Shown here piece after piece: positions 12,378 through 60,622 of a stretch of DNA of 64,000 nucleotides. The position numbers and the translations under genes are program-made. This stretch comes from Bacteroidia bacterium (GTDB lineage: Bacteria > Bacteroidota > Bacteroidia > B-17B0 > Aurantibacillaceae). The notes beneath the pieces were generated by a model. That model saw only the letters and a list, made by a program, of their open reading frames with translations. It made no database searches and had not been told where the DNA came from. Numbering within the stretch: position 1 is the stretch's first letter; the number at the start of each line of letters is the position of its first letter. The stretch covers positions 62,001 through 126,000 of the forward strand of contig JALHPG010000001.1 of assembly GCA_022842625.1 (NCBI GenBank), read 5' to 3'.

Positions 12378-12402
12378 AAAAAAAGCCCTATTTAAAGGGC
12401 TT
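12378..12402 (-). terminator. Terminator or attenuator hairpin between transaldolase-CBS and KdsC-like genes
   Basis: AAGCCCT (12383-12389) and AGGGCTT (12396-12402) pair around 6 bases. On the minus strand a run of seven T follows and ends directly at the ATG of the KdsC-like gene (12377). It is both an intrinsic terminator for the upstream gene and a structure in the ribosome-binding region of the downstream gene. Confidence 0.7.
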
Positions 12403-12414
12403 ATTAATTTTGAA

Positions 12415-13425: not shown

Positions 13426-13494
13426 GTAATAATATTATTTTAAAGTGTAAAGAAACTAAAAAAAATTGGATTTATCAGCATCGCCGTTAAATAA

Positions 13495-13531
13495 AAAAGC
13501 CTTGGCTCAGTTGTGCTGAGGCAAGGCTTTT
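13495..13531 (-). terminator. Intrinsic terminator after the 258-aa T9SS cargo gene
   Basis: AAAAGCCTTG and CAAGGCTTTT form the outer stem, with CTCAG/CTGAG extending it inward around a short loop. It lies 20 bases past the stop at 13551, between this gene and the start of the transaldolase-CBS gene. Confidence 0.85.
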
Positions 13532-13550
13532 AAAGAAAAAATTTAAATTA

Positions 13551-14327
13551 CTATTTTACTACTAACTTTTTAGTTACAGCTCCATTTGCCATTTTTATTT
13601 GAGCAAAATAAACACCGGAACTTAAATCATTAACACTTATTTCTAATTTATTTTTACCTTCTGATATAACCACAGGTTGTTCAGAAACAATAGCGCCAAG
13701 AGCATTATAAACAATCACTTTTGCATCCATAGCCTTTTGTGAATTAACTTTTAAAACAGTTACATCAGTCGCAGGGTTTGGAAAAATCTCGAAAGATGAT
13801 AATGCATTATTGTTTAATTCTGATACTCCGGCAGGGGCATTGTATTTAATGCTGATTTGAACAGAATCGCTAACGTTAGCGGTATTAAAAACTGTATACT
13901 TAATAAAGCTATAACCCACAGCTGAAGCCTCATCTAAGTCTGCTGTTAACATATTATAAGTCCCTTGAAGCTCTGATGCACTTTGACCAGAAGTTAAGGT
14001 TAAGGATTGAAGCGATAGTGTAACATTACTACCATAACAATTTCCGCCAAAACAAAAATAAGCATCAGCTATTGTGCTTGTTGATGCAACAGCGTTAAGG
14101 ACAATATCATAACGCTTAACATGATATGTCTTAGTTGCCGGGCTGGTGTTTTTTACATCAAAGTCAATCTTTGTTGGCGAGGCTGCAGCTGTTGTTGCTG
14201 AAACAATACCGTTTGGCGAAATAACGATCGGCGAAGCGGTATTGGTAACATTTGTAATCAATATGCTTGATTGCGAAAAACCTTTTAAACAAAAAAAGGA
14301 AGCTATAATTAATAAAGATTTTTTCAT
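13551..14327 (-). CDS. Small T9SS cargo protein with YFCFGxNC motif (paralogue A)
   Basis: A 258-residue secreted protein. Signal peptide MKKSLLIIASFFCLKGFSQ; a beta-rich domain of about 145 residues; a type A T9SS sorting domain from about residue 180 (FEIFPNPATDVTVLKV to the final KLVVK). The domain carries YFCFGGNCY at residues 90-98 (C92, C97) and KYTVFNTANVSDSV, both shared with the 271-residue protein at 16635-17450. The domain is not one I can name. It would cross the outer membrane through the T9SS and be attached to the surface or released. The gene begins 15 bases after the terminator hairpin of the Omp28-like gene upstream, leaving little room for its own promoter. Confidence 0.85.
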   Translation of the reverse strand: MKKSLLIIASFFCLKGFSQSSILITNVTNTASPIVISPNGIVSATTAAASPTKIDFDVKNTSPATKTYHVKRYDIVLNAVASTSTIADAYFCFGGNCYGSNVTLSLQSLTLTSGQSASELQGTYNMLTADLDEASAVGYSFIKYTVFNTANVSDSVQISIKYNAPAGVSELNNNALSSFEIFPNPATDVTVLKVNSQKAMDAKVIVYNALGAIVSEQPVVISEGKNKLEISVNDLSSGVYFAQIKMANGAVTKKLVVK

Positions 14328-14342
14328 TTTTTAAAATTTAAA

Positions 14343-14371
14343 AGCCTTACCAAATTTTATTTGGTAAGGCT
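14343..14371 (-). terminator. Terminator/attenuator between the 670-aa Omp28-like gene and paralogue A
   Basis: AGCCTTACCAAAT and ATTTGGTAAGGCT (13 bases, perfect) flank a 3-base loop, 17 bases after the stop of the Omp28-like gene. Fifteen bases separate it from the next start codon. Confidence 0.8.
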
Positions 14372-14387
14372 CTAATTAATACAAATA

Positions 14388-16400
14388 TTATTTAGTAACA
14401 GTTAATTTTTTTACCATTGAACCATTATTTGACTCAACCATAACATTATATAAACCGCTAGCAAAATCTTTAGCGTCTATTTGAAGCGTGTTAACACCTA
14501 CAGTTAATTCAACTTGTTTGCTATAAACAATTTGACCTAATGTATTCATTACGATAACGTTTGCGTTACCGCCAACAACTGCATCAATTTTTACGTTAGT
14601 TTCTCCTCTTGTAGGATTAGGGTAAACATCAAAACTTACATTGTTGTTAGTGTTTGCTTTAACTGAAGTAGCAACAGCTTGAGATAAATTGATATTATCT
14701 ACATACATGTTATTTCCATAATCAGATGTAGCAACAAACTTAACTAAAACTTCAGGTGAATTTGAATAAGAAGTTAATGCAACGTTTACTGTTTTCCATT
14801 GTGAAGCATTTGGAACAAATGCAGCAGTAACAGGACTAGCATTAGTAGCTAATACTGTACCAGCTTGACTAAATACAGTAGACCAAGTAGTACCACAATT
14901 TGTAGAAACTTTTACTTCTAACTTATCATTTTCGTTATTTGGCACAGCAGTATAAAATGCATAAGCAACGTCAAAAGATAATACAGGAGAAGTAGTTCCT
15001 GTTAAGCTTGTAGGCGGTAAATATAAATCATCAGCATCTCCTGTTACAGCGTTGTTGTAGAAATCATATTTTGAAGCACCTGTGTTAGTACCATAAGCCC
15101 CTACAGCACCGTTTCTGCTCCAAGTTGGACCAGCATTTGAGTTAACCATAGCCCAATTAGTTGGAGGGAAAGTTACAACAGTAAATGGTTCTACAACCGG
15201 ATTTGCAAAGTAAACAGGAGAGCAAACAAAACTAGTAGATTTCTTATTGTTTGTTAAATTATTTTCGCCACCACTTACTGCAATAATGTTATAAGAATAA
15301 GTGTGAGCTCCTGCAGTAGTAGTTAAAAGGTTAGTAGGAATAGTTGTAGAAGCACCAGGAGCTAAATTACCTGTCCAAACAACGTTTGCGCCAATAACTG
15401 CATCTAATGCCGGTTGTACAGTAAACGCAGTAATTGCATTTGAACCGTGATTTTTTACTGTTACAGTTGGAATTAAAGTGGTAGAACAAACTACTGCTGA
15501 AATATTTGCAGAAATAGCTTTAGCATCATTAGCTAAACCAACAGTGTTCGATAAAGCAGCTTGTTGTACTCTTTTGTTTCCGTCATCTTGAATAAAACCA
15601 ATAAAAGCTACTTCAGATTTATCTCTGATGTATGAAGGTAAAACACAGTTGATAGTGAATGTTTGATTTTGACCGGTAGTCCACGCAGATGCCATAGCCG
15701 TACCCATGCTTGTAGTTACAGTTCCAGCTTGTGTAGTTGGAAATGATTTTACAGCCACGTCTTCAAAATCCTTCTCACCGTTTGTACCCGGAGCAGTAGC
15801 AAAATTAATATGTCTTTCGATCATTACTAAACGGTAAACTAAAGCACCAGTAGATGTATAGTTTGCGCTAGCAGTAATGTTTACAGTTAATGTTACTGAA
15901 GAAAAAGTAGGATCCCATGCACGGTTCATTGTAATAGAGAATGGTGATGTGAATGAAGATGCCGCATTAAATAATGTAGCATTACCATTTCCTGCATGGT
16001 TACTTGAAGCTCCACCACCTGGCACAGCCCATAAGTGACCGCCATCAATTCTACCTTGAGGCGCAGAGTTGATACCTCCTGTTGGAGTGTCTGTAGAAGT
16101 CCAAGCTGACATATAACCGTATCCAGCAGGAGACGGAGAATAACGCCACTTGATCTCTGATTCGTTAGTTTTCCATAACGACCAAGTAGTGGTTGGCGCA
16201 GAAGGAATTGGCACTTGCCATTTAATAGCAACAACTTTTGTTGAGTTTGCAGCGATGTTAGCATTTAAGCCCGGATTTGTTGCTGCACAAGGAGGACAAT
16301 TTTCTCCTGTAAACTCTTCGAATAATGATAAACGTGGAGTCTGCGCTACAGCAGTAATTCCAGCGATCACTAAACCTAAGGTTAATAGATTTTTTTTCAT
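14388..16400 (-). CDS. Omp28-related thioredoxin-like T9SS cargo protein (long form 1)
   Basis: A 670-residue secreted protein. Signal peptide MKKNLLTLGLVIAGITAVAQ, then an Omp28-like domain beginning LFEEFTGENCPPCAATNPG, where C35 and C38 form a thioredoxin-type CPPC. The middle part has CARDB-like (VTVKNHGSNAITAF) and cleaved-adhesin-like (FPPTNWAMVNSN...VLSFDVAYAFY) beta domains. A type A T9SS sorting domain closes it (FDVYPNPTRGETNVKI, final KKLTVTK). It is a clear paralogue of 18841-20760: same order of domains and the same TPRLSLFEEFTGE start. A consensus promoter lies 40 bases upstream. A disulfide-exchange or adhesion role at the surface is inferred only. Confidence 0.88.
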   Translation of the reverse strand: MKKNLLTLGLVIAGITAVAQTPRLSLFEEFTGENCPPCAATNPGLNANIAANSTKVVAIKWQVPIPSAPTTTWSLWKTNESEIKWRYSPSPAGYGYMSAWTSTDTPTGGINSAPQGRIDGGHLWAVPGGGASSNHAGNGNATLFNAASSFTSPFSITMNRAWDPTFSSVTLTVNITASANYTSTGALVYRLVMIERHINFATAPGTNGEKDFEDVAVKSFPTTQAGTVTTSMGTAMASAWTTGQNQTFTINCVLPSYIRDKSEVAFIGFIQDDGNKRVQQAALSNTVGLANDAKAISANISAVVCSTTLIPTVTVKNHGSNAITAFTVQPALDAVIGANVVWTGNLAPGASTTIPTNLLTTTAGAHTYSYNIIAVSGGENNLTNNKKSTSFVCSPVYFANPVVEPFTVVTFPPTNWAMVNSNAGPTWSRNGAVGAYGTNTGASKYDFYNNAVTGDADDLYLPPTSLTGTTSPVLSFDVAYAFYTAVPNNENDKLEVKVSTNCGTTWSTVFSQAGTVLATNASPVTAAFVPNASQWKTVNVALTSYSNSPEVLVKFVATSDYGNNMYVDNINLSQAVATSVKANTNNNVSFDVYPNPTRGETNVKIDAVVGGNANVIVMNTLGQIVYSKQVELTVGVNTLQIDAKDFASGLYNVMVESNNGSMVKKLTVTK

Positions 16401-47524: not shown

Positions 47525-48502
47525 CTATTTTTTCGACAAAGCAAATTCTTTCGCAAAATACGTTAATATAACCGAAGCTCCTGCACGTTTCATACTCAGT
47601 AAGATCTCGTCTCTCACTTTATCACCATCTATCCACTTTTTTGCTGCTGCAGCTTTAACCATGGCGTATTCGCCACTAACATTGTATGCGGCTATTGGTA
47701 AGTTAAAATTATCGTTTAATGATTTAATAATATCTAAATAACTTAAAGCCGGCTTTACCATTAAAAAATCGGCACCTTCTATAAAATCAAGATCAGCCTC
47801 TAACAAAGCTTCTTTACTATTTGCAGGATCCATCTGATATGTTTTTTTATCTCCAAATTTTGGAGCACTGTCCAATGCATCTCTAAATGGTCCATAAAAC
47901 GCGCTTGCGTATTTGGCCGTGTAACTCATTATAGATACATCTGTAAATCCTGCATCGTCCAAAGCCTCCCTAATATAACCAACCCGTCCGTCCATCATAT
48001 CACTTGGCCCAATAATATCAGCACCCGCTTCTGCCTGAACTAAGGCCATTTTAGCAAGAATACTTAAGGTTTCATCATTTAAAATTTGCCCGTTTTTTAC
48101 TAAACCGTCATGTCCATCACTGCTGTATGGATCCATGGCTACATCGGTCATAATAACCGCCTCAGGAAAATATTTTTTAATTTCTCTGATCATGCTTGGG
48201 TATAATCCCTTTTTATTAAGAGACTCTGTAGCTTTTTTATCTTTTAACTTATCGTTTAGACTCGGAAAAATATCGAAGGTAGTAAGGCCTAATTTTAAGC
48301 AGCTTTCAATTTCCTTTAACATCAAATCGCTGCTTAGCCTGTAAATTCCAGGCATCGAAGCAACTTCAGACTTTTTGTTTTTTCCTTCGATCAAAAACAA
48401 AGGAAAAATAAGGTCGTTTACCGTAACAGAATTTTCCTGTATCATATTTCTGATAGCGGCATTCTTGCGATTTCTGCGTGGGCGTTGGGATAAATTTATC
48501 AT
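47525..48502 (-). CDS. hemB: Delta-aminolevulinic acid dehydratase (porphobilinogen synthase)
   Basis: A 325-residue cytoplasmic enzyme that joins two 5-aminolevulinate molecules into porphobilinogen for haem. The two Schiff-base lysines are K197 in SYTAKYASAFYGPFRDA and K250 in DFLMVKPALSYLD. The metal-binding loop reads DVAMDPYSSDGHDG, without the three Cys of the zinc-dependent form, which points to the Mg-dependent type. It lies between a lytic transglycosylase gene and the SiaB-like gene, minus strand. Confidence 0.97.
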   Translation of the reverse strand: MINLSQRPRRNRKNAAIRNMIQENSVTVNDLIFPLFLIEGKNKKSEVASMPGIYRLSSDLMLKEIESCLKLGLTTFDIFPSLNDKLKDKKATESLNKKGLYPSMIREIKKYFPEAVIMTDVAMDPYSSDGHDGLVKNGQILNDETLSILAKMALVQAEAGADIIGPSDMMDGRVGYIREALDDAGFTDVSIMSYTAKYASAFYGPFRDALDSAPKFGDKKTYQMDPANSKEALLEADLDFIEGADFLMVKPALSYLDIIKSLNDNFNLPIAAYNVSGEYAMVKAAAAKKWIDGDKVRDEILLSMKRAGASVILTYFAKEFALSKK

Positions 48503-48572
48503 AAAATAATTTAGATAAAATTACATCATTTTTATTAAATAATTCAGTATTAATTTTTAAGAAAATAAGAAG

Positions 48573-49562
48573 TTATTTCTTTGCGATCAGAGCTCTCTCG
48601 TTCATTTCCAGCATAGCAGCTAACACCAACTGAGAGTAGTTTTGAGAGGCATTTTTAAACCTGGCGGTTTGTGTTTGCCATAGGGTGTAGATAAGATCCA
48701 TATTGCCGTGTTGCGGCTTGAAAGCAAATAAGGCTTTTTCTACATTATATGCGCCGGCATGATAAACGTGCATTACCAATAATTTAAACCACAAATCACT
48801 TTCGCTGTATCCTGTAATGTTTAGATCTTCTAACATTTTATGCGCTTTAGGGATACAAATTGTTTTGATCAAACTACTGGATGCATAGGCGCTTCTTTCA
48901 AAATCGGCACGCTCATCTATCTCCTTATTCACTTTTAAGCCGTATAGTCTTGCAACATCTTTCATTAATTGAAAGGGCCCATATGCGCCTGCGTTAGATT
49001 TTTGTAATTTGTTTGGACTTTCAATTAATAAGATGGCCTGCGCAAACCAAGGGTCAACGCCGTTCGCAACAAAACAATTTATGCCATTATGGAAATTTTG
49101 TGAGGTTTTATCAAAATCGTAAAAGAATTTTTTTCCGCTTGTAATTAAAACGCGATTTGTTGAATCAACATTATTAGCCAATCGCACGCTATCTCGGAAA
49201 AACTTTTTTATTGAATCCGGTTTTGAATTCCAATCCTTTATGTTAATTTTTTGAATGATGGTTCTTGAGCTTCCAAAATTCACAATGGCACTATCTTGAT
49301 GCAAATTCATAATGCTTCGCCAAAATTTTACCTGAGCAACTGTGTCTAATTTTAAATGATACAAAGATCTATCTAAAATATAATCTTCGTTGAATTTTGT
49401 TTTAGGATTAAGCACTCCAACTACATTATAGCAAAGGGTTTTAGGTTCGTTGATCTTATTCTCAGATATAGTAACTGTTTTTTTTGCGATTGGTTCAACC
49501 GGGGTTGTTGCAATGTTAGTGCAAGAGTATAAAAAAACAAATATTAATATAAAAAATCTCAT
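48573..49562 (-). CDS. Lytic murein transglycosylase (SLT domain) lipoprotein
   Basis: A 329-residue lipoprotein when started at ATG 49562 (MRFFILIFVFLYSC gives lipobox LYSC); the frame to 49628 has no proper start context. An N-terminal region of about 160 residues precedes the SLT domain: FAQAILLIESPNKLQKS contains the catalytic Glu, followed by NAGAYGPFQLMKDVARLYGL and later VYHAGAYNVEKAL. It cleaves the glycan strands of peptidoglycan with formation of 1,6-anhydro ends, from the periplasmic side of a membrane. It is 70 bases upstream of hemB. Confidence 0.88.
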   Translation of the reverse strand: MRFFILIFVFLYSCTNIATTPVEPIAKKTVTISENKINEPKTLCYNVVGVLNPKTKFNEDYILDRSLYHLKLDTVAQVKFWRSIMNLHQDSAIVNFGSSRTIIQKINIKDWNSKPDSIKKFFRDSVRLANNVDSTNRVLITSGKKFFYDFDKTSQNFHNGINCFVANGVDPWFAQAILLIESPNKLQKSNAGAYGPFQLMKDVARLYGLKVNKEIDERADFERSAYASSSLIKTICIPKAHKMLEDLNITGYSESDLWFKLLVMHVYHAGAYNVEKALFAFKPQHGNMDLIYTLWQTQTARFKNASQNYSQLVLAAMLEMNERALIAKK

Positions 49563-49737
49563 ATCCTTATAAAGTAAATTTAATGAATATTTTCTATAAT
49601 TCAAATAGGCACTGTTGTAAAAAATCAACCTAGCTATGTTGCTAATAAAAAGGGGTATAAAAGTAAATTCCTTATCGATTAAAACGAATTAAATAGCGAC
49701 ACATTCATAAATAATTCTTACAAAGTGAATGGCTAGT

Positions 49738-50772
49738 CTATTTTTTATTGGCAGGCGCAAGATCTTGCTTTCGATAATCCGAAATAAAATCACCATACTT
49801 TTTTGTTTTATAGGCATTTGATCCGATATACTTCAAGATCGGTTTCATTTGTTCGGGCGATTGGTAAAAATTTAAAACATCAATAGAATTTAGTTGCTCA
49901 TCCAACAAACAAATAGCAGGTAAGCTAAACCTATTATTAGTTAGCATTAAAGCCAAATTATGCAATGGATAATTATTTACAAGTTGCTTGTAATATTTGG
50001 TCTTTTTAAAAACAATGGTATCATTTGATTCGGCATTAAAATTTACCAGATAAAAATTCTGATTTAAATAATTAGCAATACTTGTATCAACAAAAGTTGT
50101 TTTAGAAATTACCTTGCAGGTATTACAAAAATTAGCACCAATATTAACAATTACTTTTTTAGGTTTCTTTTTTTGAAGTTTTTCTAATTCAGAAAAAGAG
50201 TAGCTGTTAACTTTTGCCTTTACAAAATTTGTATCTACAAATGTGTTGGCAAAGTGCTTATTAAAATCATCGAACACACTTGTTCTCCATGCATTTTCGA
50301 CCATAAAAATTAAAATAGGCTCAATCTTTTTTTCGTCTAAATAACCTTGGGTTAATAAATTGTATTCAAAATTATTTGTAATAAACATTGTTGAGGGGTA
50401 ACTCAGGCTGCTTGATAAAAATTTTATCGCTAATTCGTGTGGTGTTTTAGGGTCGGCAGATAATGGCTTATAGATCTTTCCATTATATTCGATAGTATCT
50501 TTGGTTTCGGCATCAAACTTAACAGCATAAAAATTATTATTAATATAGTCAGCAATTGCCGGATTAGAATAAGTGGTTTTCATCATGTGTTTACACCAGC
50601 CACACCAATCTGTATATATATCAACTAAAAATGGTTTTTGAAGTGTCTTGTTTTTTTCCTGCGCTTCTTTAAACGTTAACCATTTAACAAGTCCGTCTTT
50701 TTCTACCTGCGAAAAAGCAGCATTTATTAAGCTAATAACACAAATTATAGTAATAAAGAGTTTATTTAACAT
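49738..50772 (-). CDS. Double-thioredoxin-domain secreted protein
   Basis: A 344-residue periplasmic protein from ATG 50772 (MLNKLFITIICVISLINAAFSQ signal). Two thioredoxin-fold halves: the first has VDIYTDWCGWCKHMMKTTY (active CGWC), the second VNIGANFCNTCKVISKTTF (CNTC). Each is followed by an Asn-rich NFYxVxFxAExxDT pattern, so the protein arose by internal duplication. It is likely a disulfide or reductant-relay protein of the periplasm. Divergent from the T9SS gene at 50833 with 60 bases between starts. Confidence 0.87.
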   Translation of the reverse strand: MLNKLFITIICVISLINAAFSQVEKDGLVKWLTFKEAQEKNKTLQKPFLVDIYTDWCGWCKHMMKTTYSNPAIADYINNNFYAVKFDAETKDTIEYNGKIYKPLSADPKTPHELAIKFLSSSLSYPSTMFITNNFEYNLLTQGYLDEKKIEPILIFMVENAWRTSVFDDFNKHFANTFVDTNFVKAKVNSYSFSELEKLQKKKPKKVIVNIGANFCNTCKVISKTTFVDTSIANYLNQNFYLVNFNAESNDTIVFKKTKYYKQLVNNYPLHNLALMLTNNRFSLPAICLLDEQLNSIDVLNFYQSPEQMKPILKYIGSNAYKTKKYGDFISDYRKQDLAPANKK

Positions 50773-50801
50773 ACGTTTAACCTTATTAAAATACAAATAC
50801 T

Positions 50802-50809
50802 TATTTTTG
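50802..50809 (+). promoter_or_regulatory. Candidate -7 element of the T9SS cargo gene at 50833
   Basis: TATTTTTG fits TAnnTTTG and lies 23 bases before the ATG. No TTG at suitable spacing was found. Confidence 0.35.
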
Positions 50810-50832
50810 TATAAATTTAAAAACTATTTACT

Positions 50833-51819
50833 ATGATAAAAAAATTACTTTCACTTTCATTATTAGCTTTTGGTGTTAATACCATTAACGCACAAAGTTT
50901 TTCTTTGTATTATCCATTTACAGCGGTACCTCAAGGTTCTACTACACTAATAACAGTTGACCCTACACCAGCTCCAACAGCTACAGGTATCAACTCCGGT
51001 TCGTTTACTGCAGTAGGAACAGGAACGGGATCAACAACTAACAGTGTATTTTCATTTGTAGGCTGGGGAACCGGTGCAACTAGTGGAAATAATACAACTT
51101 TTACCGGGGCTATTGACTTAGGTAAATATTACGAAATTGTACTTACACCGCAACCTAATTATGTAGTAACTTTAAACAGTATGACTTTTGGTGCAACCCG
51201 TTCAGGAACAGGTGTTCGTAACTGGGCAGTAAGAACTAACAAAGATAGTTACTCTACAAACTCTGCTGCAACTTATACTGCGTTTAGCTCTGCGGCATCT
51301 AGTCCAACAATTCCTGTAACCGTTCAAGGCGGTAATACATTTTTCTGGACCGCTGATGCTGTAACAGGGAATGCTGCTTTTGCAACCTACAACATTTGTC
51401 AGGTTAATTTTAACCCTTCAACTCACACAAATCAAAACACGCCATTTAACGTTCGTATGTACGCTTGGAATGCTGAAGCAGGAACCGGAACTTTTCGTAT
51501 TGACACCCTAACTATTAACGGTATTGCTACAATGTCATTAGGTGTTGGTCTGCCAACTGTTAGTCATGATATTAATGCTAAGATCAAATTGTATCCAAAC
51601 CCAACTAATGATGGTGTTGTTTCAATTGACGCTGCTACAACAAACTATACTAAAATTGAAGTTTTAAATATTTTAGGTGCAGTTGTTGCTTCTCAAAATA
51701 ATACTTTAACTGAAGAAAAAATTAAATTAGATCTTGCTACTTTACCAACCGGAACCTACTTTGTAAGAGTAACTGCGGGAGATAAATCGTATACTGAAAA
51801 ACTAATTATTTCTAAATAA
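50833..51819 (+). CDS. T9SS type A cargo protein of unknown function
   Basis: A 328-residue secreted protein: signal peptide MIKKLLSLSLLAFGVNTINAQ, a beta-rich domain of about 220 residues (FTGAIDLGKYYEIVLTPQ, LNSMTFGATRSGTGVRNW, FRIDTLTINGI, a jelly-roll-like pattern), and a type A sorting domain (KIKLYPNPTNDGVVSI to KLIISK). The domain resembles the T9SS-linked proteins that bind or decorate the surface, but I cannot name a family. Single gene with its own -7 box and a strong terminator. Confidence 0.83.
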   Translation: MIKKLLSLSLLAFGVNTINAQSFSLYYPFTAVPQGSTTLITVDPTPAPTATGINSGSFTAVGTGTGSTTNSVFSFVGWGTGATSGNNTTFTGAIDLGKYYEIVLTPQPNYVVTLNSMTFGATRSGTGVRNWAVRTNKDSYSTNSAATYTAFSSAASSPTIPVTVQGGNTFFWTADAVTGNAAFATYNICQVNFNPSTHTNQNTPFNVRMYAWNAEAGTGTFRIDTLTINGIATMSLGVGLPTVSHDINAKIKLYPNPTNDGVVSIDAATTNYTKIEVLNILGAVVASQNNTLTEEKIKLDLATLPTGTYFVRVTAGDKSYTEKLIISK

Positions 51820-51840
51820 ACTGTTTTATCACTAAACAAA

Positions 51841-51870
51841 AAAACCCGGGTCATTAACGATCCGGGTTTT
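51841..51870 (+). terminator. Terminator after the T9SS cargo gene at 50833
   Basis: AAAACCCGGGTC pairs with GATCCGGGTTTT (one G-U pair) around 6 bases and is followed by a T-run, 21 bases past the stop. Confidence 0.85.
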
Positions 51871-52029
51871 TTTGTTTCCTTGTCATACCCACAAAAGGAG
51901 GTATCTTTTTACGTATAAGATTTAACTGTTAAACAAGTATATAAAGTATAATTGTTTTTCGTTTATTCAGATCCCTCCTATCGTCGGGATGATAAACTAA
52001 ATAACCCTTTATAAATTATCTTACACAAT

Positions 52030-55000
52030 CTACTCAGACTTAACAACAACACCGCTCATTGGATCACCGGCTGTTCCGGAATCTTTGCCGTTAACATCTT
52101 TAATGTTGTTTACTGTTTCTTTATCGATTATTTTATTGTAAGGGTCTATCCCAAACATATAAGGTTCTTTATCAACTATAAATTCGATTGTTTGCTCTTT
52201 GGAAGTGATCTTATGTTTCTTTAAATAAATAACATCCCCTAATTGTGTTGCATTTGCTTTTCCCTTTGAAAAAACAGCAAGATCAAACCAATTATTAGGC
52301 ACGACTTCTTTTGCTTTACCTAAACTATCACTTTGCGTTTTTATACATTCAATTTTAGCGGTGATCTTAAATTTACCATCACTTGTTTTTTTATAGCTCC
52401 AGCTTTTTACGCTGTTATCATAAACAACAATTCTTTCAAACATATCCTTTACAGTTTCCTTTAAGCTATCTGGTGTTGCTTGTTTAACAAAATCATAAAG
52501 CTCCAAAGAGGTTGTGTATGGTGGTTCTTGAAAAGCCACATGTTTTACATATCTGCTAAGCGCCGCATTCAAAGTGTCTTCTCCCAAATAATCTTTAAGC
52601 GCATACATAATAACACTTCCCTTATTGTAATGAATGTATTGTTGATTTTCACACAATAACAAAGGCACTTCTTTTTTACCTTCTTGTGCGCGACCTTGCA
52701 AATACTTATTCATCTCATATCTTAAAAACTTACTCATTGATGCTTGCCCATATTCTTTTTCCATTACCATTAAGGCACTGTACTGACTCATAGTTTCGCT
52801 TGTAACTGTGCAGCCCTGAACATTAGCGCCAATAACCTGATGCGCCCACCACTGATGTGCAACCTCATGTGCTGTAACATAAAACGGATAATCTACTTTA
52901 TTAGGATCTGTATCATCCACCTTTGCAATAAAACCTATGCCTTCAGAAAACGGAATAGTATTTGGAAACGATTGTGCAAAAGTAGAATATCTCGGAAATT
53001 CAAGGATACGAACTTGTTTATGTTGGTATGGACTAAAACTTTTTGTATAATAATCTAATGATCTTTTTATTCCTTTTATCATTCCATCAATATTATACTC
53101 ATGCCCTTTTTGATAATAGATCTCAATATTTACTGTGTTGGTTGTATTTAACGGATCGATCCATTTATCTTTTTTAATTTGATATGCAGCGGATAAAAAC
53201 GAATAAAAATTTAAGATAGGCGCATCCATTTTATATTGAAAATAATGACGATCTTTTTCTTTCCAATCTTTTAATAAATATCCGGGTGCTATTGCAGTTT
53301 GTCCCGTTTTTGTTGAAACAATACATTCAAAACGGATCCAATCTGCATCGTGAGAAATATACGTATTGGCATAAGCGTTAGTATCTGTAACGTTTGCGAT
53401 ACGTGGTTTTGGTGCTAACTTATATTTTTTACGTGTAGAATTTTCGCCCAATTCCATATCGGGATTATACCCAATAGACGGAAGAATGCCGCTGTTAAAG
53501 AACGAGCCATTTTCAACCACCATTGATTGCTCTTGTCTCATAATAAAGTTTTTCGGGAAATACTCAAGGTCGAATTCAAACTTCAATGAATCATTTGGTT
53601 GTAAAGCTGTTGTTAATTCGTAACCATAAAAACCATTTTTCTTATCGTCAACAAACTTTTTATTAGGCACGCTAAACTTTAATTCAGTTAGTTTTACATC
53701 TGTAATTGCATTAATAAATATTTTTGAGAGTGGTTGTTTGTGTTTATTTTTTAAATAATAAAAACCTTTTACTTTTGCGCCCAACTCATCCGGAAAAATA
53801 TCTACCTTAACATTCGATTCAACAACTCTTGGCTGCAATTCTTTCTCGTATTTTTTGTATGCAATTTCAAACTCAGCCGTTAGCTTTTCAATATCTTTTT
53901 CAGACTTATACGGATTTAAAACGCGTGTGTTATAATAAATAACAGAGCCACAACTTAAAAAAAACATCGTTCCTAATATTATTGCGTATTTATAGGAAGG
54001 TTTAAAGTTTTTACGCGCCTGTTTCCAACGAACAGCAAATGGTTGTTCTTTTCCGCGTTGATACATTGCAATAGCGAGGGTGCAAACTATCAACATTAGG
54101 CCCATCCAATAACCTTTAAATATAAAAAAGTTTGGAAGCGTATGTCCGTGTCCGTTCATGTCAGAATACGCCATTTGATCACCAGCGGAATTATACCTGA
54201 ACATTTCATTCGTATAATTTAACGCTCTTAATATTAACGGCATTCCTAAAACAATAAACACCATTACAAAAAATGCCACGTAACGATTTTTAAAAAACAC
54301 TTGCATTGATAAGCCTAAAGCCACTAATAAAGAAATGCTGAATATCTTTAACAGAATCAAATCGGTAAAATACAATCCTATTTCGAAATTGGTATAACCG
54401 GAAAGACTTTGAATACAGATACAAGTAAATATGCAAACAAGATTAACGGCTAGAGATAAAAATAATAACGAAAAGAATTTTGATCCAAATAGAACTCCGT
54501 TTTTTACAGGAGTAGAGCCCACCAATTCATCCACTTTACTGTCTTTTTCGCGCCAAATTAAAATACCAGTATAAAATACGATCATAATTAATTGAAAGAA
54601 ACTAAACGTTCCGCTCGCTAATTCAATTTGCATATAGGTTACAGGATAGGTTTCTGTACCATAAATTAATCCCGAGAATTGAGAAGTTAAAACAGTTAAC
54701 AAAATAGATAAACCAAGAATAATTATAAAGAAAACTGATTTAGCGATCTTTAAAAATTCAAACTTAGTAAGAAACACTAATTGTTCAATAACCAAACGGC
54801 GATCAAACACCTGAGATACTTTTGGCAAATGGCCAATAGATTGAATGGCTTTAGAAGGTTGCGATTTGGTTTCTTTTGCTTTGCGTTTAAATAAACTTAC
54901 AGGATTTAAAAACTGATTAAAGCTAAATTTATAATAGGTAAAAATTAATAAAGCAAATGACAAGCCCAGCCACAACAAACGGTTATATAAAATATAACTT

Positions 55001-55731
55001 GTAAATGGGATCAGGCGAGTATTAGTTTCTGCTGGCGTCCAGTATTCGGTAATAGAATCTAAAGCCTGAGCGCCAAACGGATCCATTAAAGCAGCAATTG
55101 TTTTATTATCAATATCTGAAGTAATGCTGCGTGATATGCCAGCAACTACAATAAAAACGAGACTTCCAACATAACCACTTGTCATGTTACGTGTAAAAGT
55201 TACCAGAGAGAAAAACAGGGTGCCAATAAAAAAAGTGTTTGGCAATAAAAAATAAATAAAGGGCTGAAAGAAATTAATGAATTTGAAATCGCCTAATTGC
55301 CCATTATCATTATTAGCCAATAAAAACGCAAATAGTATTCCAAAAATAATTCCAGTTAAAACAAAAGTGGTTAATAAAAACGAAGCGCTAAATCTGCCAA
55401 ATAAATAACTGAATTTTGTAATTGGTTTTGTAAAATAAAATGAAAAACAATTGTATTGAAAATCTTTTTGCACACAACCTGCCATTAAAGCCACACAGAT
55501 CAAAAGTGTAATTAATCCGAACAAATAATCGGTATTAAAACTTGTAACAATACCTGCAATTGTTACTGCAGAATTGATGTAAGAATTTGTGTCGGCCGAA
55601 ACCCCACTAAACATGCCGGATATAGCCGCACCTAATAAAAAGGCCAATGCCATGAAGACAGCAAAATAAATATAAACACCCGGTCGTTTTAACCACTGTT
55701 TTAATTCGTAAACAAAAATTTCTTTAAACAT
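52030..55731 (-). CDS. ABC-2-type permease fused to M1-family aminopeptidase
   Basis: A 1233-residue membrane protein. The N-terminal half holds two blocks of hydrophobic helices (roughly residues 15-270 and 330-610) resembling a doubled ABC-2 permease, including FYFTKPITKFSYLFGRF. After a last membrane segment near residue 590 comes an M1 gluzincin metallopeptidase: zinc motif HEVAHQWW near residue 954 and the distal Glu in SETMSQYSALMVMEKEYG, 19-22 residues further. The MRQEQS...GILPSIGYNP region resembles the GxMEN-side segment only loosely. The peptidase should face the periplasm. This fusion is known in Bacteroidota, with unknown substrate. Its ATPase gene lies 24 bases upstream. Confidence 0.88.
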   Translation of the reverse strand: MFKEIFVYELKQWLKRPGVYIYFAVFMALAFLLGAAISGMFSGVSADTNSYINSAVTIAGIVTSFNTDYLFGLITLLICVALMAGCVQKDFQYNCFSFYFTKPITKFSYLFGRFSASFLLTTFVLTGIIFGILFAFLLANNDNGQLGDFKFINFFQPFIYFLLPNTFFIGTLFFSLVTFTRNMTSGYVGSLVFIVVAGISRSITSDIDNKTIAALMDPFGAQALDSITEYWTPAETNTRLIPFTSYILYNRLLWLGLSFALLIFTYYKFSFNQFLNPVSLFKRKAKETKSQPSKAIQSIGHLPKVSQVFDRRLVIEQLVFLTKFEFLKIAKSVFFIIILGLSILLTVLTSQFSGLIYGTETYPVTYMQIELASGTFSFFQLIMIVFYTGILIWREKDSKVDELVGSTPVKNGVLFGSKFFSLLFLSLAVNLVCIFTCICIQSLSGYTNFEIGLYFTDLILLKIFSISLLVALGLSMQVFFKNRYVAFFVMVFIVLGMPLILRALNYTNEMFRYNSAGDQMAYSDMNGHGHTLPNFFIFKGYWMGLMLIVCTLAIAMYQRGKEQPFAVRWKQARKNFKPSYKYAIILGTMFFLSCGSVIYYNTRVLNPYKSEKDIEKLTAEFEIAYKKYEKELQPRVVESNVKVDIFPDELGAKVKGFYYLKNKHKQPLSKIFINAITDVKLTELKFSVPNKKFVDDKKNGFYGYELTTALQPNDSLKFEFDLEYFPKNFIMRQEQSMVVENGSFFNSGILPSIGYNPDMELGENSTRKKYKLAPKPRIANVTDTNAYANTYISHDADWIRFECIVSTKTGQTAIAPGYLLKDWKEKDRHYFQYKMDAPILNFYSFLSAAYQIKKDKWIDPLNTTNTVNIEIYYQKGHEYNIDGMIKGIKRSLDYYTKSFSPYQHKQVRILEFPRYSTFAQSFPNTIPFSEGIGFIAKVDDTDPNKVDYPFYVTAHEVAHQWWAHQVIGANVQGCTVTSETMSQYSALMVMEKEYGQASMSKFLRYEMNKYLQGRAQEGKKEVPLLLCENQQYIHYNKGSVIMYALKDYLGEDTLNAALSRYVKHVAFQEPPYTTSLELYDFVKQATPDSLKETVKDMFERIVVYDNSVKSWSYKKTSDGKFKITAKIECIKTQSDSLGKAKEVVPNNWFDLAVFSKGKANATQLGDVIYLKKHKITSKEQTIEFIVDKEPYMFGIDPYNKIIDKETVNNIKDVNGKDSGTAGDPMSGVVVKSE

Positions 55732-55755
55732 AAATTTGTATTAATGACAATGTAA

Positions 55756-56625
55756 TTATTTTGCGTTGATGTAAGAGAAATAAACATCTTCCAGATCACC
55801 CTCTATTACAGTGAATTTATGATCCGGTAAAGAATCACTCATTACATGAACAACAATTTTTCCTTCAGCCACTCTTGTAGAAATGACATTAAATTGCTGA
55901 CGGTAATCTGCAAGCTCTTCTTTTGCAATTACCACTTTATATATTTTACCTTTTAAAAGATCTAAAGCTTCTGTGGTTTTACCATTAAACATTACCTGAC
56001 CTAAATTCATAACCGCCATTTTTTCGCAAAGGTTACTTACATCCTCTACTATATGTGTTGAAAGGATAACGATAATATTTTCTCCAACTTCACTCAACAA
56101 ATTATGAAAACGATTACGCTCTTGCGGATCCAAACCTGCTGTTGGCTCATCAACAATAACCACTTTAGGATTTCCTAATAATGCCTGAGCAATACCAAAA
56201 CGCTGACGCATACCGCCACTATAATCACCAATGTAACGCTTACGCACCTCGTATAAATTTGTTTGATGTAACAATGCATCACACACTTCTTTACGCTCTG
56301 CTTTATTTGAAATGCCTTTTAAAATTGCGAAATGGTGCAGCATATCATCGGCACTTACTTTTGGGTAAAAACCAAAATCCTGCGGCAAATAGCCCAGTAC
56401 CTTGCGCATTTCCTCTTTATTATTTATTACATCAAGGTCATCTAAAAAAATTGTTCCTTCGCTTGGTTCTTGCAAAGTAGAAATGGTTCGCATTAAACTG
56501 GATTTACCTGCACCATTAGGGCCAAGTAAACCAAACATGCCGTTTGAAATTTCTAAATTTACGTTTGATAAAGCTTTTAATCCTCCCGGATAAACTTTAC
56601 TGAGGTTTGATATCTTTAATTCCAT
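55756..56625 (-). CDS. ABC transporter ATP-binding protein (partner of the ABC-2/M1 fusion)
   Basis: A 289-residue ATPase: Walker A GPNGAGKSS, Q-loop YLPQDFGFYPKVSADDML, signature YSGGMRQRFGIAQALLGNP, Walker B VVIVDEPTAGLDPQER, switch His in LSTHIVEDVSNLCEK. The C-terminal 65 residues are an extra domain as in CcmA/NatA-type ATPases. It directly precedes the permease/aminopeptidase fusion, so the two form one exporter-like complex in the inner membrane. Confidence 0.92.
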   Translation of the reverse strand: MELKISNLSKVYPGGLKALSNVNLEISNGMFGLLGPNGAGKSSLMRTISTLQEPSEGTIFLDDLDVINNKEEMRKVLGYLPQDFGFYPKVSADDMLHHFAILKGISNKAERKEVCDALLHQTNLYEVRKRYIGDYSGGMRQRFGIAQALLGNPKVVIVDEPTAGLDPQERNRFHNLLSEVGENIIVILSTHIVEDVSNLCEKMAVMNLGQVMFNGKTTEALDLLKGKIYKVVIAKEELADYRQQFNVISTRVAEGKIVVHVMSDSLPDHKFTVIEGDLEDVYFSYINAK

Positions 56626-56730
56626 AATATAAATTAAAGATAGAAGTTTAAGCCTTTAACCTATAATAATAGTTACAAAGTGCAAAATACTTACATGAAC
56701 AGCAAAAAAACAAGGATGAGAAGCGTTGGA

Positions 56731-57363
56731 TTATTTTGCGGGTTTAAAATCCACAACATTCAGTTGTTTATCACAAATAAAATATTCGTCCTGAATAGCA
56801 TTAGAGGCAACAATAACAGTGCGATCCTTAGAATGATCTTTAAGGAGTTGTTTATACCAAGCTATTGCGTTTGCATCAAGGTTGGATACAGGCTCGTCTA
56901 ATAATAATAAAGGTGTATCGCATAAAATAGCAACGCCTAATTTTAAACGTTGTTTCATGCCGCTACTGAATTGTTTGATCAATTTATTCTTTGCGTGAGT
57001 AAGATCCATCAATTCAATGATCTGCTCTGTAGAAAGATCTTTTATGAAAGGTTTATAAATTTTGGTATGATCGATCATTTCGGTTAAAGTAAAATCTTCA
57101 ACCAAATGAATGTACGGTGAAGCAAACGAAATGTAATTTTTTATTTTATCTACGGGAACGATCTTGTCGTTAACCTTGTAAATAACCTCACCCTCATTCT
57201 CAGTTATAAAACCACTAATTACCTGTAGTAACGTAGATTTACCCGAACCGTTTCCGCCTAAAATAACTACCTTATCATTTGCGTTTATGGTAAAAGAAAG
57301 GTCTTTAAAGATCCATTCTTTATTAAATTTTTTACTGAGATGATTTAGTTGAATGGATAACAT
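56731..57363 (-). CDS. ABC transporter ATP-binding protein (short)
   Basis: A 210-residue ATPase without C-terminal extension: Walker A GGNGSGKST, signature FSSGMKQRLKLGVAILCDTP (LSGGQ replaced by FSSGM), Walker B LLLLDEPVSNLD. A His is missing at the usual switch position (VIVASNAIQDEYFICD). No permease gene lies beside it; it follows lpxA by 9 bases on the same strand and its partner is unknown. A link to lipid or envelope export is suggested only by position. Confidence 0.85.
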   Translation of the reverse strand: MLSIQLNHLSKKFNKEWIFKDLSFTINANDKVVILGGNGSGKSTLLQVISGFITENEGEVIYKVNDKIVPVDKIKNYISFASPYIHLVEDFTLTEMIDHTKIYKPFIKDLSTEQIIELMDLTHAKNKLIKQFSSGMKQRLKLGVAILCDTPLLLLDEPVSNLDANAIAWYKQLLKDHSKDRTVIVASNAIQDEYFICDKQLNVVDFKPAK

Positions 57364-57372
57364 TTTTTTAAA

Positions 57373-58146
57373 TTAAATTCCTTTTATGATCCCGTCTTTT
57401 TGGTTGCGGATAAAATCAATGATCTGTTTACGAATTGGTGTATCCGGCATTTCATTTTCAACAATTTCTAAAGCGTTGGTTACGTTATGTCCACGTACAA
57501 AAATAATACGATAAATATCTTCTATTTGTTTTATTACTTCTTTATCAAAACCTCTGCGGGCTAAACCAATGGTGTTAACGCCAATAAATTGTAACGGTTC
57601 ACGTGCCACTCTGCAATACGGCGGAATACTTTTTCTTACAAGCGATGCGCCGGCAACAAAAGAGTGAGCGCCAATATTTACGAATTGCTGTGCGGCAACT
57701 ACACCTTCAATGATCACAAAATCCTCTACAGTAATGTGTCCGGCTAAACTACCGTTGTTTGCAATAATAACATTATTACCTATAGCGCAATCGTGTCCTA
57801 AATGCGTGTAACACATTATCAAACAATTATCGCCAACCTTGGTGGTCATTCTATCTGCAGTGCCTTTGTGAATTGTAGCATACTCGCGAATAGTGGTGTT
57901 TTTACCAATAACGGTATTTGATTTTTCGCCTTTATATTTAAGGTCTTGATTTATTATACCAATAACTGCACCCGGAAAAATTTTACATCCGCTACCAATA
58001 ATGGTATCGGGATAAATAACCGCGTTTGGGTGAATATAACAATCGTCCCCAATTTCAACATCTTCGTAAATAGTAGCAAATGCTTCAATGGTAACGTTAT
58101 TACCAATTTTAGCTCTGGGGCTAACGTTTGCGAGAGGTGATATCAT
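57373..58146 (-). CDS. lpxA: UDP-N-acetylglucosamine acyltransferase LpxA
   Basis: A 257-residue left-handed beta-helix acyltransferase that puts a hydroxyacyl chain on UDP-GlcNAc, the first step of lipid A synthesis. Hexapeptide repeats fill the N-terminal two thirds (SPRAKIGNNVTIEAFATIYE, VTIEGVV...), and the catalytic His lies in MCYTHLGHDCAIGNN. The C-terminal helical part (LARRGFDKEVIKQIEDIYRIIF) matches LpxA rather than LpxD. It starts 3 bases after the lpxC-fabZ stop and is coupled to it. Confidence 0.96.
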   Translation of the reverse strand: MISPLANVSPRAKIGNNVTIEAFATIYEDVEIGDDCYIHPNAVIYPDTIIGSGCKIFPGAVIGIINQDLKYKGEKSNTVIGKNTTIREYATIHKGTADRMTTKVGDNCLIMCYTHLGHDCAIGNNVIIANNGSLAGHITVEDFVIIEGVVAAQQFVNIGAHSFVAGASLVRKSIPPYCRVAREPLQFIGVNTIGLARRGFDKEVIKQIEDIYRIIFVRGHNVTNALEIVENEMPDTPIRKQIIDFIRNQKDGIIKGI

Positions 58147-58149
58147 AAA

Positions 58150-59580
58150 TTAAGTTAGTTGTGGTTCGGTTGTTTTTACTTCAATATTTTTTACCTTAAC
58201 AATTTGCGCCATCATTTCGGCTTCCATTACCGGTTTGTTGTTGACATAAGCTACACCACGCATGTGGCAAATACCACGGCGAATAGGAGTAACTAATACT
58301 AAACTAAATACAACAGTGTCACCGGGAATAACCATCTTTTTAAATTTAACGCCATCAATTTTCATGAAGTAGGTTAAATAATTTTCAGGGTCGGGAACTG
58401 TTTTTAATACTAGTACGCCGCCACATTGTGCCATGGCTTCAATTAATAACACTCCCGGCATTACAGGGTTTTCAGGAAAGTGACCTTTAAAGAACTCTTC
58501 GTTTAAAGTAACATTTTTTACACCTATTACATGCTCCAAAGAAAGCTCCATGATCTTATCTACCAATAGCATTGGCTGACGGTGTGGTAAAATTTTCATG
58601 ATATCCATTATATTTAATAATGGCGGTTTATTAAGATCGATCTTAGGATAATCTTTTTCGGCTTTTTGTTTTTTTGCTAAAGCTTTTAATTTTTTAGCAA
58701 AATCTACATTTCCCGCATGACCGGGACGAGCAGCTAAAACGTGTATCTTCATTGGTTTTCCAACCAAAGCAAGATCACCGACAATATCTAATAATTTATG
58801 GCGAGCAGGCTCATTATAAAAATGCATTTTGGTATTATTTAAAACACCACGACCTTTAACTTCTACATTTGGCTTATTAAATACTTTGCGCAAGTAATCT
58901 AATTTCTCTTCCGGTAATTCGCTATCAACTAAAACTATTGCATTATCAAGATCTCCCCCTTTAATTAAATTATGTGCTAATAACGCTTCTAATTCTCTTA
59001 AAAAAACAAAGGTTCTGCATGGTGCGATCTGTGATTTAAACTCGCGCAAATTATACATCGAGGCGTGTTGTGTTCCCAACACTTCGCTGCCATAATCTAC
59101 CATTACGGTAACTCTAAATTCATCTTGTGGCACGGCTAACATTTCTACTTTTTTGATCGGATCTTCAAAAGTTAAATTTTCAGTTAACTCAAAATAATCA
59201 CGATCGGCTTCTTGTTCAACAATACCAGTTTTTTCAAGTATCTCAACAAATTTTGATGAGCTTCCGTCCAATATTGGCATTTCCGGACCGGTAACCTGAA
59301 TAAGACAATTATCAATTCCTAAACCCATTAAGGCAGCAAGCACATGCTCGGTTGTGTGCACTTTTGCTCCGTTCTTCTCAAGAGTTGTTCCTCTTGATGT
59401 ATCCACTGCTAAATCTGCGTCTGCATCAATAATTGGTTGCCCTTCAAGATCTATTCGTTGAAATTTATACCAATGATTTTCGGGCGCCGGATTAAATGTT
59501 AATGTAACGGGCGCACCTGTATGTAATCCTACACCTGATATAGAAACAGGGCCTTGTATCGTTCTTTGCTTATCACTCAT
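58150..59580 (-). CDS. lpxC-fabZ: Bifunctional LpxC deacetylase / FabZ dehydratase
   Basis: A 476-residue fusion. Residues 1-310 are LpxC (UDP-3-O-acyl-GlcNAc deacetylase): VHTTEHVLAALMGLGIDN carries zinc His residues, HKLLDIVGDLALVG the third His and Asp, and LAARPGHAGN the catalytic His. Residues 330-470 are FabZ (3-hydroxyacyl-ACP dehydratase): LPHRQPMLLVDKI, FKGHFPENPVMPGVLLIEAMAQCGG. The fusion is characteristic of Bacteroidota and Chlorobi and joins lipid A and fatty-acid synthesis, since both use 3-hydroxyacyl-ACP. lpxA follows. Confidence 0.97.
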   Translation of the reverse strand: MSDKQRTIQGPVSISGVGLHTGAPVTLTFNPAPENHWYKFQRIDLEGQPIIDADADLAVDTSRGTTLEKNGAKVHTTEHVLAALMGLGIDNCLIQVTGPEMPILDGSSSKFVEILEKTGIVEQEADRDYFELTENLTFEDPIKKVEMLAVPQDEFRVTVMVDYGSEVLGTQHASMYNLREFKSQIAPCRTFVFLRELEALLAHNLIKGGDLDNAIVLVDSELPEEKLDYLRKVFNKPNVEVKGRGVLNNTKMHFYNEPARHKLLDIVGDLALVGKPMKIHVLAARPGHAGNVDFAKKLKALAKKQKAEKDYPKIDLNKPPLLNIMDIMKILPHRQPMLLVDKIMELSLEHVIGVKNVTLNEEFFKGHFPENPVMPGVLLIEAMAQCGGVLVLKTVPDPENYLTYFMKIDGVKFKKMVIPGDTVVFSLVLVTPIRRGICHMRGVAYVNNKPVMEAEMMAQIVKVKNIEVKTTEPQLT

Positions 59581-59722
59581 AAAAATAAAAATGGTAGTTT
59601 GTAAATGTAGCTAAATTTAATAAAAATCTTTCTATATTCTTAAGCCTCCTAAAGACTCATTTTAAACAAATTATATCAACAAAACACTAGCGCTAGCAAT
59701 GCCTGCATTAAGCAATGGTGTA

Positions 59723-60622
59723 TCAATTAAAACTTAGGTATGGCATAAGCTTATTGTAAGCCTGATCGTCATTAATGATGTCTTTTAAATTAACAGCAGT
59801 AATTACTGTCTTTTTGCGCCAATCAAACAAAGTTTTAGTTAATTCATAACTCAAATACGGATGTTTATTAATACTCTTAAAATCATCTTTATTTAAGTTT
59901 AATTTTTTAATAAGATCGGCGTTAACGGTTACGTTAGGCTTAATTTTTTCAAACATTTCATCCGTAAAGCCATACACTTCTTTTAATTGTTCTACAGAAA
60001 CAAAACCACCTAAAAGGCTTCTGTATTTTAAAATTCGTTTAGCAAACGCAGGGCCAATGCCATTAATATCTAGCAATGTTAGGCTATCTGCAGTGTTTAA
60101 TTCTACTTTAGTTTGGTTTTTATTTGCGCTGGCAGTAACAGTACTTTGACTCTTATTGGAATTTAACTTCGTGGCACTGTTTTTATTTTCTATTATAATG
60201 TATGGCTCTAGTTTCGAATAAAAATTTTCTGATATGCCATATACTTTTTTAAGATCGCTTTTTTGTTTAAACACAAAACCTCTGTCTCTGAACTTTAAAA
60301 ATGTTTGTGCGGTTTTTTTATTAAAACCTAACTGAATTAATTGTTGATCGTTGATGGTGTTAGGATCGAACACAAATAAATTTACTACACTGTTTTCTTG
60401 AGCGAAATTTGCTGAAAACCGACCTTGTGACAGCTGATAAGAACTGTCTAGTTTTTTTTCGATCAGTGGCAGGTTCTTAATTTCAATTTTGTCGGGAGTA
60501 ATAAACGAAGGATAAATTATTCTTACCAAAAACAAGCTTAAACTAATTATTGAAAGAAAAAGTAAGCCGTTTCGTTGTTGCTTATTAAATCCAAAATAAT
60601 TATTCAGAAAACTGTTTACCAT
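59723..60622 (-). CDS. Helix-hairpin-helix (ComEA-like) membrane protein
   Basis: A 299-residue protein: one transmembrane anchor at about residues 18-37 (GLLFLSIISLSLFLVRIIYP), a linker, then at least three HhH units. The clearest is VELNTADSLTLLDINGIGPAFAKRILKYR at about residues 173-201, preceded by VFDPNTINDQQLIQLGFN and followed by a third half-unit. ComEA-like HhH proteins bind DNA in natural transformation, but the long form with several HhH repeats is common and uncharacterised in Bacteroidota. It overlaps the amino-acid permease gene end by 23 bases. Confidence 0.85.
   Translation of the reverse strand: MVNSFLNNYFGFNKQQRNGLLFLSIISLSLFLVRIIYPSFITPDKIEIKNLPLIEKKLDSSYQLSQGRFSANFAQENSVVNLFVFDPNTINDQQLIQLGFNKKTAQTFLKFRDRGFVFKQKSDLKKVYGISENFYSKLEPYIIIENKNSATKLNSNKSQSTVTASANKNQTKVELNTADSLTLLDINGIGPAFAKRILKYRSLLGGFVSVEQLKEVYGFTDEMFEKIKPNVTVNADLIKKLNLNKDDFKSINKHPYLSYELTKTLFDWRKKTVITAVNLKDIINDDQAYNKLMPYLSFN

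Follow-up and report, generated by a model that had tools for sequence, protein, structure and literature searches.

Among described systems, a peptidase and an ATP-binding cassette (ABC) transporter come together in the PCAT/AMS transporters, whose C39 peptidase is cytosolic, and in the NSR/NsrFP/NsrRK system, whose peptidase NSR belongs to the serine class. Large enzymes of the M1 family, a family of zinc peptidases, carry a C-terminal helical domain IV. According to the accessible part of PMC5583591, NSR (the peptidase), NsrFP (the ABC transporter), and NsrRK (the two-component system) act against nisin, and C39-like domains of type I secretion recruit substrate without having activity (PMC6363468, in the portion available). 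In M1 aminopeptidases, the glutamate of the GAMEN motif binds the N terminus of the substrate (PMC3244404 and PMC13039773, accessible parts). Here, we describe a gene pair in a 64,000-nucleotide stretch of a Bacteroidia bacterium genome (contig JALHPG010000001.1, positions 62,001 to 126,000; hereafter the window), in which one gene codes for an ABC-2 permease fused to a C-terminal M1-fold domain and the other for an ABC ATPase.

With a probability of roughly 0.45, we read the pair as an ABC-2 transporter that exports or extracts a peptide-like substrate and carries a periplasmic M1-fold domain, which would grip the substrate and usually cut it. The architecture of the fusion, its pairing with the ATPase, its zinc site, and its recurrence among relatives carry this reading and are presented before the alternatives are weighed.

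The fusion protein and its partner ATPase

Two open reading frames (ORFs) from an ORF scan of the window together span exactly positions 52030 to 56625, with 24 nt between them and the ATPase gene preceding the fusion gene (Table 1). The initial annotation, made from the sequence of this stretch, had read the larger gene as an ABC-2 permease joined to an M1-type peptidase, and a single ORF of 1233 aa indeed encodes both. Above the Pfam gathering score, the protein matches Peptidase_M1 at residues 889–1091 (43.7 bits; gathering score 27.7) and ABC2_membrane_4 at residues 323–493 (37.4 bits). When 27 aligned members were scanned, Peptidase_M1 was found in all 27 at E-values up to 0.001 and ABC2_membrane_4 in 22. 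An AlphaFold2 model of residues 1–1200 has a mean predicted local distance difference test score (pLDDT) of 76.6 and a predicted template modeling score of 0.67. A gene-calling or assembly artefact is ruled out, since homologous ORFs of more than 1000 aa are present in 33 of the 34 loci in the first set of relatives; the exception, L029, is cut by a contig end. A scan for promoters and terminators gave results at chance level (21 versus 21.1 expected; 3 versus 3.1 expected).

Taken alone, the first membrane half is not matched by any Pfam family at E-values up to 0.01. The two halves nevertheless match each other in a profile comparison over 241 columns (probability 98.7%, E = 3e-16), and the doubled ABC-2 blocks reported for this protein are therefore real. 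Hydropathy gives 13 segments, arranged as 6 + 6 + 1, i.e., the two six-helix membrane domains of an ABC-2 transporter followed by a linker helix. Before helix 13, the seven stretches predicted to be inside hold 36 lysine and arginine residues in all, as against 4 in the six loops predicted to be outside. This strong positive-inside pattern predicts that the N terminus is inside and that everything past residue 600 is periplasmic, in agreement with the location first proposed for the peptidase. Since both ABC-2 halves share one chain, the expected complex would consist of one fusion chain and two ATPase copies, and the dimer of fusion chains that had been envisaged as the assembly is not the expected one.

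The partner ATPase has the Walker A (GPNGAGKSS), signature (YSGGM), and Walker B (VVIVDEP) sequences required of an ABC-2 motor and a His switch (STH), as read from its translation. It shows a resemblance to DrrA (179.5 bits) and to lantibiotic-protection ATPases (134.5 bits), although neither match reaches the curated cut-off. Comparisons between relatives rest on an alignment of 91 proteins, the query and 90 fusion ORFs of more than 1000 aa, from which the Sphingomonas plasmid copy L062 (two overlapping ORFs) and L029 were left out. The adjacency of the ATPase gene, noted for the window, holds in 89 of the 90 aligned loci. A script requiring an upstream position within 700 nt on the same strand found 86 of them, and three were added by inspection: in L026 and L077 the ATPase lies next door and had been lost to an overlap filter, and in L004 it ends at the contig edge. 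L072 (fusion at 11549–15445) is the sole locus of the 90 with the ATPase apart, its gene lying ~3.9 kb upstream with other ORFs in between. Of 86 partner ATPases, 84 combine Walker A, SGG, and Walker B, the two misses being short frames of 171 and 164 aa. Over 86 gene pairs, the identity of the ATPase correlates with that of the membrane half (r = 0.87) and of the M1 part (r = 0.77), and shared genome ancestry contributes to both values. A second, short ABC ATPase of 210 aa without an evident permease is encoded at 56731–57363 (minus strand), between the gene pair and an lpxA-like acyltransferase gene. Counterparts of it are seen in close relatives; it was rejected as the partner, as these counterparts are ~21–28% identical to the real partner.

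The M1-fold domain and its active site

The region beyond the thirteenth helix adopts an M1 fold in a separate AlphaFold2 model of residues 601–1233, which has a mean pLDDT of 82.7. M1 aminopeptidases rank at the top of a Foldseek search with this region (best E = 4.8e-24), and VIA-align superposes it on E. coli PepN with Z = 28.0 over 508 residues (root mean square deviation 4.8). In a structure search with the full-length model, all 50 matches listed are M1 proteins. Membership in M1, by fold and zinc site, thus follows from a Pfam match over threshold, from catalytic residues that are each present in 89 or 90 of the 91 proteins, and from Z values of up to 28.0. The domain names in Table 1 follow those of M1 structures. 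Because the chain stops after the beta sandwich, helical domain IV is missing. Moreover, 12 of the 91 proteins are only 1046–1096 aa long and match to about query residue 1100, and these appear from their sequences to be without the sandwich too.

The motifs quoted for the peptidase are present, with HEVAH at residue 955. Of the 91 aligned proteins, 89 have the complete set of two histidines, two glutamates, and the tyrosine that is presumably the catalytic one, as in other M1 proteins (Tyr1035). When the sequences are thinned at 70% identity over the M1 part, the set is complete in 56 of 58. Among the 89 complete proteins, pairwise identity in the M1 part falls to 17%, with a median of 39%. 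Since zinc ligands, catalytic glutamate, and tyrosine are kept this widely, most members are probably active as peptidases. However, the site departs from that of canonical M1 aminopeptidases in two respects. The spacing between the second histidine and the third zinc ligand is x19 in 80 of 91 proteins and x20 in 11, never the x18 of canonical HEXXH-x18-E. In addition, the HMMER alignment of FAQSFPNTIPFSE with GAMENWGLITYRE of ERAP2 is gapless and places Ser921 on the GAMEN glutamate, and this column holds no glutamate in any of the 91 proteins (Ser 63, Ala 24, Leu 2, Thr 1, Gly 1); as a sequence alignment, the comparison is secure in most members but weaker in the most divergent ones (e.g., L063 and L064). 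By comparison, the genome's seven further M1 proteins all keep a GAMEN-like glutamate (in GAMEN, GAMEH, GGMEH, GGMEY, NGMEY, and DGMEY motifs) together with the x18 spacing, counted by eye.

The initial annotation had described a complete M1 gluzincin and an M1 aminopeptidase. The fold, zinc site, catalytic glutamate, and tyrosine of that description stand, whereas the GAMEN-type exopeptidase motif and the x18 spacing do not. As judged from the alignment, the site is intact as a zinc site and yet departs from a canonical M1 aminopeptidase. With the GAMEN glutamate absent, the label "aminopeptidase" is unsupported for the fusion family, and the annotation "M1 family aminopeptidase" that homologs carry is put in doubt.

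Three members depart further. In L099, QQ..Q stands where HE..H is expected, in L111 the corresponding residues are RE..K and there is no third ligand, and both have also lost the tyrosine. The third is a 1038-aa protein on a Zymomonas plasmid, annotated as an ABC transporter permease and encoded after an ABC ATPase gene. Its C-terminal part matches the M1 region of the family over 378 columns (probability 98.7%) with a degraded zinc motif. To judge from these sequences, the architecture can outlast the peptidase. All three, L099 (7702–11412), L111 (7867–11145), and L125 (5001–8117), are natural pseudo-peptidase transporters, with a degenerate zinc site in a preserved architecture.

Table 1 Features of the gene pair, with positions in the window
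Feature	Positions	Strand	Basis
ABC ATPase, 289 aa, presumed transporter motor	55756..56625	-	ORF; Pfam ABC_tran 103.9 bits
Fusion protein, 1233 aa: two ABC-2 halves, linking helix, and periplasmic M1-fold domain	52030..55731	-	ORF; Pfam; AlphaFold2
First ABC-2 half, residues 1-270, six hydrophobic segments	54922..55731	-	Hydropathy; half-versus-half profile comparison
Second ABC-2 half, residues 318-560, six hydrophobic segments	54052..54780	-	Pfam ABC2_membrane_4; hydropathy
Thirteenth membrane helix, residues 582-600, predicted to take the C-terminal part to the periplasm	53932..53988	-	Hydropathy; Lys + Arg count; model helix 578-605
Periplasmic M1-fold region (predicted), residues 601-1195: N-terminal beta domain, catalytic domain, C-terminal beta sandwich	52147..53931	-	Model; Foldseek; VIA-align
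FAQSFPNTIPFSE, residues 918-930, gapless counterpart of the GAMEN...YRE stretch	52942..52980	-	HMMER alignments to ERAP2
Zinc site HEVAH-x19-E, residues 955-979	52795..52869	-	H955 in 89, E956 in 90, H959 in 89, E979 in 90 of 91 proteins
Tyr1035 of YIHYNKG, counterpart of the M1 catalytic tyrosine	52627..52629	-	Tyr in 89/91; aligned with ERAP2 YNKG

Distribution and gene neighborhood

The fusion had been noted to recur in Bacteroidota, and matches over more than 1000 query residues occur in 64 of 296 sampled genomes of this phylum, i.e., about one in five; matches elsewhere extend it to Acidobacteriota, Gemmatimonadota, and Pseudomonadota. Any match at all is found in 118 of the 296 genomes, the weak ones covering the M1 part only and presumably representing stand-alone M1 proteins. 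Among plasmid records, 27 have a match and 8 have one place that covers at least 80% of the query: four from Hymenobacter, one from Spirosoma (both Bacteroidota), and one each from Granulicella (Acidobacteriota), Sphingomonas (Pseudomonadota), and Gemmatirosa (Gemmatimonadota). Pseudoalteromonas accounts for five records with a partial match; in the two examined together with their annotation, the gene directly after an ABC ATPase gene has a product of 1046 or 1050 aa. In each of the five annotated plasmid regions examined, the name "M1 family aminopeptidase" is given to the homolog or, in Sphingomonas, to its C-terminal part. The Granulicella gene table has no ATPase, yet an open frame with a Walker A motif lies upstream, and the two overlapping ORFs of the Sphingomonas copy reflect a frameshift or a true split. 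No phage record matched the fusion.

With the membrane half alone as the query, matches were found in 34 of 87 genomes of the window's family, at 37 places. Of these, 33 lie in open frames of at least 1190 aa; the frames of the other 4 are shorter and are located at a contig end or close to one. At that sensitivity, and judged by frame length rather than by the M1 part of each place, no free-standing permease was seen in the 87 genomes. An ordinary M1 aminopeptidase with an accidental fusion was rejected as an explanation, given the wide recurrence of the fusion and a search that met no free permease.

Recurrent neighbor clusters, named from their representatives alone, comprise a LytTR response regulator (15 loci), a LytS-type histidine kinase (13), a DUF2975 protein (10), and a GntR regulator (3). 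LytTR ORFs number 15 in 12 of 52 loci (734 kb of flank), as against ~2.2 expected from the mean density of 44 genomes; this enrichment is rough, because the two counts differed in detection and the loci do not count as independent. Over all loci, 18 LytTR ORFs are listed, 11 of which are encoded upstream on the opposite strand. The DUF2975-cluster gene precedes the ATPase–fusion pair on the same strand in L073, L103–L108, L110, L115, and L116. All ten loci of this cluster have the x20 spacing, and the eleventh x20 member, L094, is outside the cluster. In the window, the neighbors are genes that we take, from their sequences, to be lpxA- and lpxC-fabZ-like, a single ORF at 58150–59580 (minus strand) presumably being the LpxC-FabZ fusion of Bacteroidota. 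On the other side, a gene at 50833–51819 (plus strand), convergent with the fusion gene, codes for a protein with a type IX secretion sorting tail.

Proposed function and relation to known systems

In the reading that we favor, two ATPase copies would power one 12-helix permease chain, and the thirteenth helix would hang the M1-fold zinc domain on the outer side of the inner membrane. The pump might expel a peptide or extract one from the inner membrane. The M1 domain would bind the delivered peptide and, in most members, cut it in the periplasm. Given that the GAMEN glutamate and the usual helical lid are absent, it probably does not nibble single N-terminal residues as aminopeptidase N does; a specific cut, endoproteolytic or releasing an oligopeptide, may be made instead. 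The departures of the site are consistent with cutting inside peptides, and weaker activity is their other possible meaning.

Several observations weigh against this reading. The papers listed show no transport or peptidase activity of the fusion, and none treats the function of the fusion or the combination of an ABC-2 permease with an M1 peptidase, in a search mostly outside subscription journals and preprints, which agrees with the description of the fusion as functionally unexplored. The GAMEN glutamate has been implicated in catalysis itself (PMC3244404, accessible part), so its loss could mean weaker activity rather than a different cut. NosP keeps GAMEN yet acts as an endopeptidase (PMC13039773, accessible part), so that GAMEN-keeping M1 enzymes can be endopeptidases and a missing glutamate is no proof of endoproteolysis. 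The degenerate members in L099, L111, and Zymomonas indicate that cutting is not always needed. Within the window's genus, 20 of 40 genomes gave a match and 20 gave none, some of the genomes being incomplete. Seven genomes hold two testable copies each; of these 14 copies, just 4 (L069, L071, and both copies in L096, from 3 of the 7 genomes) have a permease and an ATPase whose nearest relatives elsewhere agree, and the other 10 disagree, so that this comparison lends the pairing weak support. No peptide-precursor or biosynthesis family stands out among the recurrent neighbors, a list without ORFs below 80 aa that small precursors would escape, and no regulator lies beside the window's copy among ORFs of at least 100 aa at 48000–60000.

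The presence of a peptidase, an ABC transporter, and a LytTR regulator or histidine kinase together at part of the loci also fits a defense against antimicrobial peptides, with the pump removing a membrane-active peptide and the M1 domain breaking it down, as NSR/NsrFP/NsrRK do with nisin. The patchy distribution, the two copies in some genomes, and the presence on plasmids point the same way. However, LytTR is found at just 12 of 52 loci and at none beside the window's copy, NsrFP is of the BceAB type, a different permease class, and we know of no drug or peptide phenotype for the fusion, which also counts against defense. On balance, this explanation is unlikely. The degenerate zinc sites in an otherwise kept architecture raise the further possibility that the M1 domain mainly binds peptides, recruiting or chaperoning them as degenerate C39-like domains recruit substrate without activity (PMC6363468, in the portion available), with cutting being secondary. 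Yet 89 of 91 proteins keep all five catalytic residues at a median identity of 39%, which argues for selected catalysis in most members. We consider a role confined largely to binding rather improbable.

The presence of seven other M1 proteins in the same genome would suit a membrane-tethered periplasmic peptidase for nutrition or envelope turnover, with an unrelated cargo for the permease and a fusion that merely keeps both together. ABC-2 transporters often move lipids, drugs, or polysaccharides. Against such tethering, no free-standing permease was seen in 87 genomes, at the sensitivity given above, and two site features set the M1 part apart from the genome's other seven M1 proteins; we consider it distinctly improbable. 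If transport and cutting are coupled, as the export reading has it, the pair would give Gram-negative bacteria a new means of maturing peptides, signaling with them, or destroying them at the inner membrane. The peptide might be an export product that is matured or a harmful one that is destroyed, and both would fit; by analogy, PCATs make the former sensible and NSR/NsrFP/NsrRK the latter. A bolder and doubtful extension is that the fusion represents a separate class of peptidase-coupled ABC transporters, a Gram-negative mirror of the C39 transporters on the outer side of the membrane. In such a class, the open, GAMEN-less M1 site would receive the peptide directly from the permease and make one specific endoproteolytic cut that matures or inactivates it, and dead-site members would keep the domain to serve as a receptor for the substrate.

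Compared with M1 aminopeptidases (E. coli PepN, ERAP1/2, LTA4H, and PfA-M1), the fusion shares the fold, HEXXH, the third zinc glutamate, the catalytic tyrosine, and the Pfam family Peptidase_M1. It differs by the missing GAMEN glutamate, x19 or x20 in place of x18, the missing helical domain IV, and the attached ABC-2 permease. AplP and NosP, which remove the leader peptides of ribosomally synthesized and post-translationally modified peptides (RiPPs), are likewise zinc peptidases, with endopeptidase activity, and NosP is called an M1 member. However, NosP keeps GAMEN and HEXXH-x18-E, and the accessible part of the source describes no transporter fusion for either (PMC13039773). No RiPP genes were recognized beside the fusion loci. 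Drug and lantibiotic ABC-2 exporters (DrrAB and LanFEG) have a similar ATPase, whereas the fusion has two ABC-2 halves in one chain plus the M1 domain.

As in PCAT/AMS transporters (e.g., LahT), a peptidase and a permease share one transporter polypeptide, and inactive, degenerate versions exist in both (PMC6363468, in the portion available). In contrast to their N-terminal C39 cysteine protease, the fusion has a C-terminal metallopeptidase that is predicted to be periplasmic, an ABC-2 permease, and a separate ATPase, and Pfam finds no C39 domain in the window protein or in the 27 members scanned. With NSR/NsrFP/NsrRK it shares the combination of peptidase and ABC transporter, joined at part of its loci by what may be a two-component system, although NSR is a separate peptidase of another class and NsrFP is of the BceAB type (PMC5583591, accessible part). 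By these analogies, the fusion would be functionally like both PCATs and NSR/NsrFP/NsrRK and would belong to neither. Its component parts are already known, and their combination is probably what is new.

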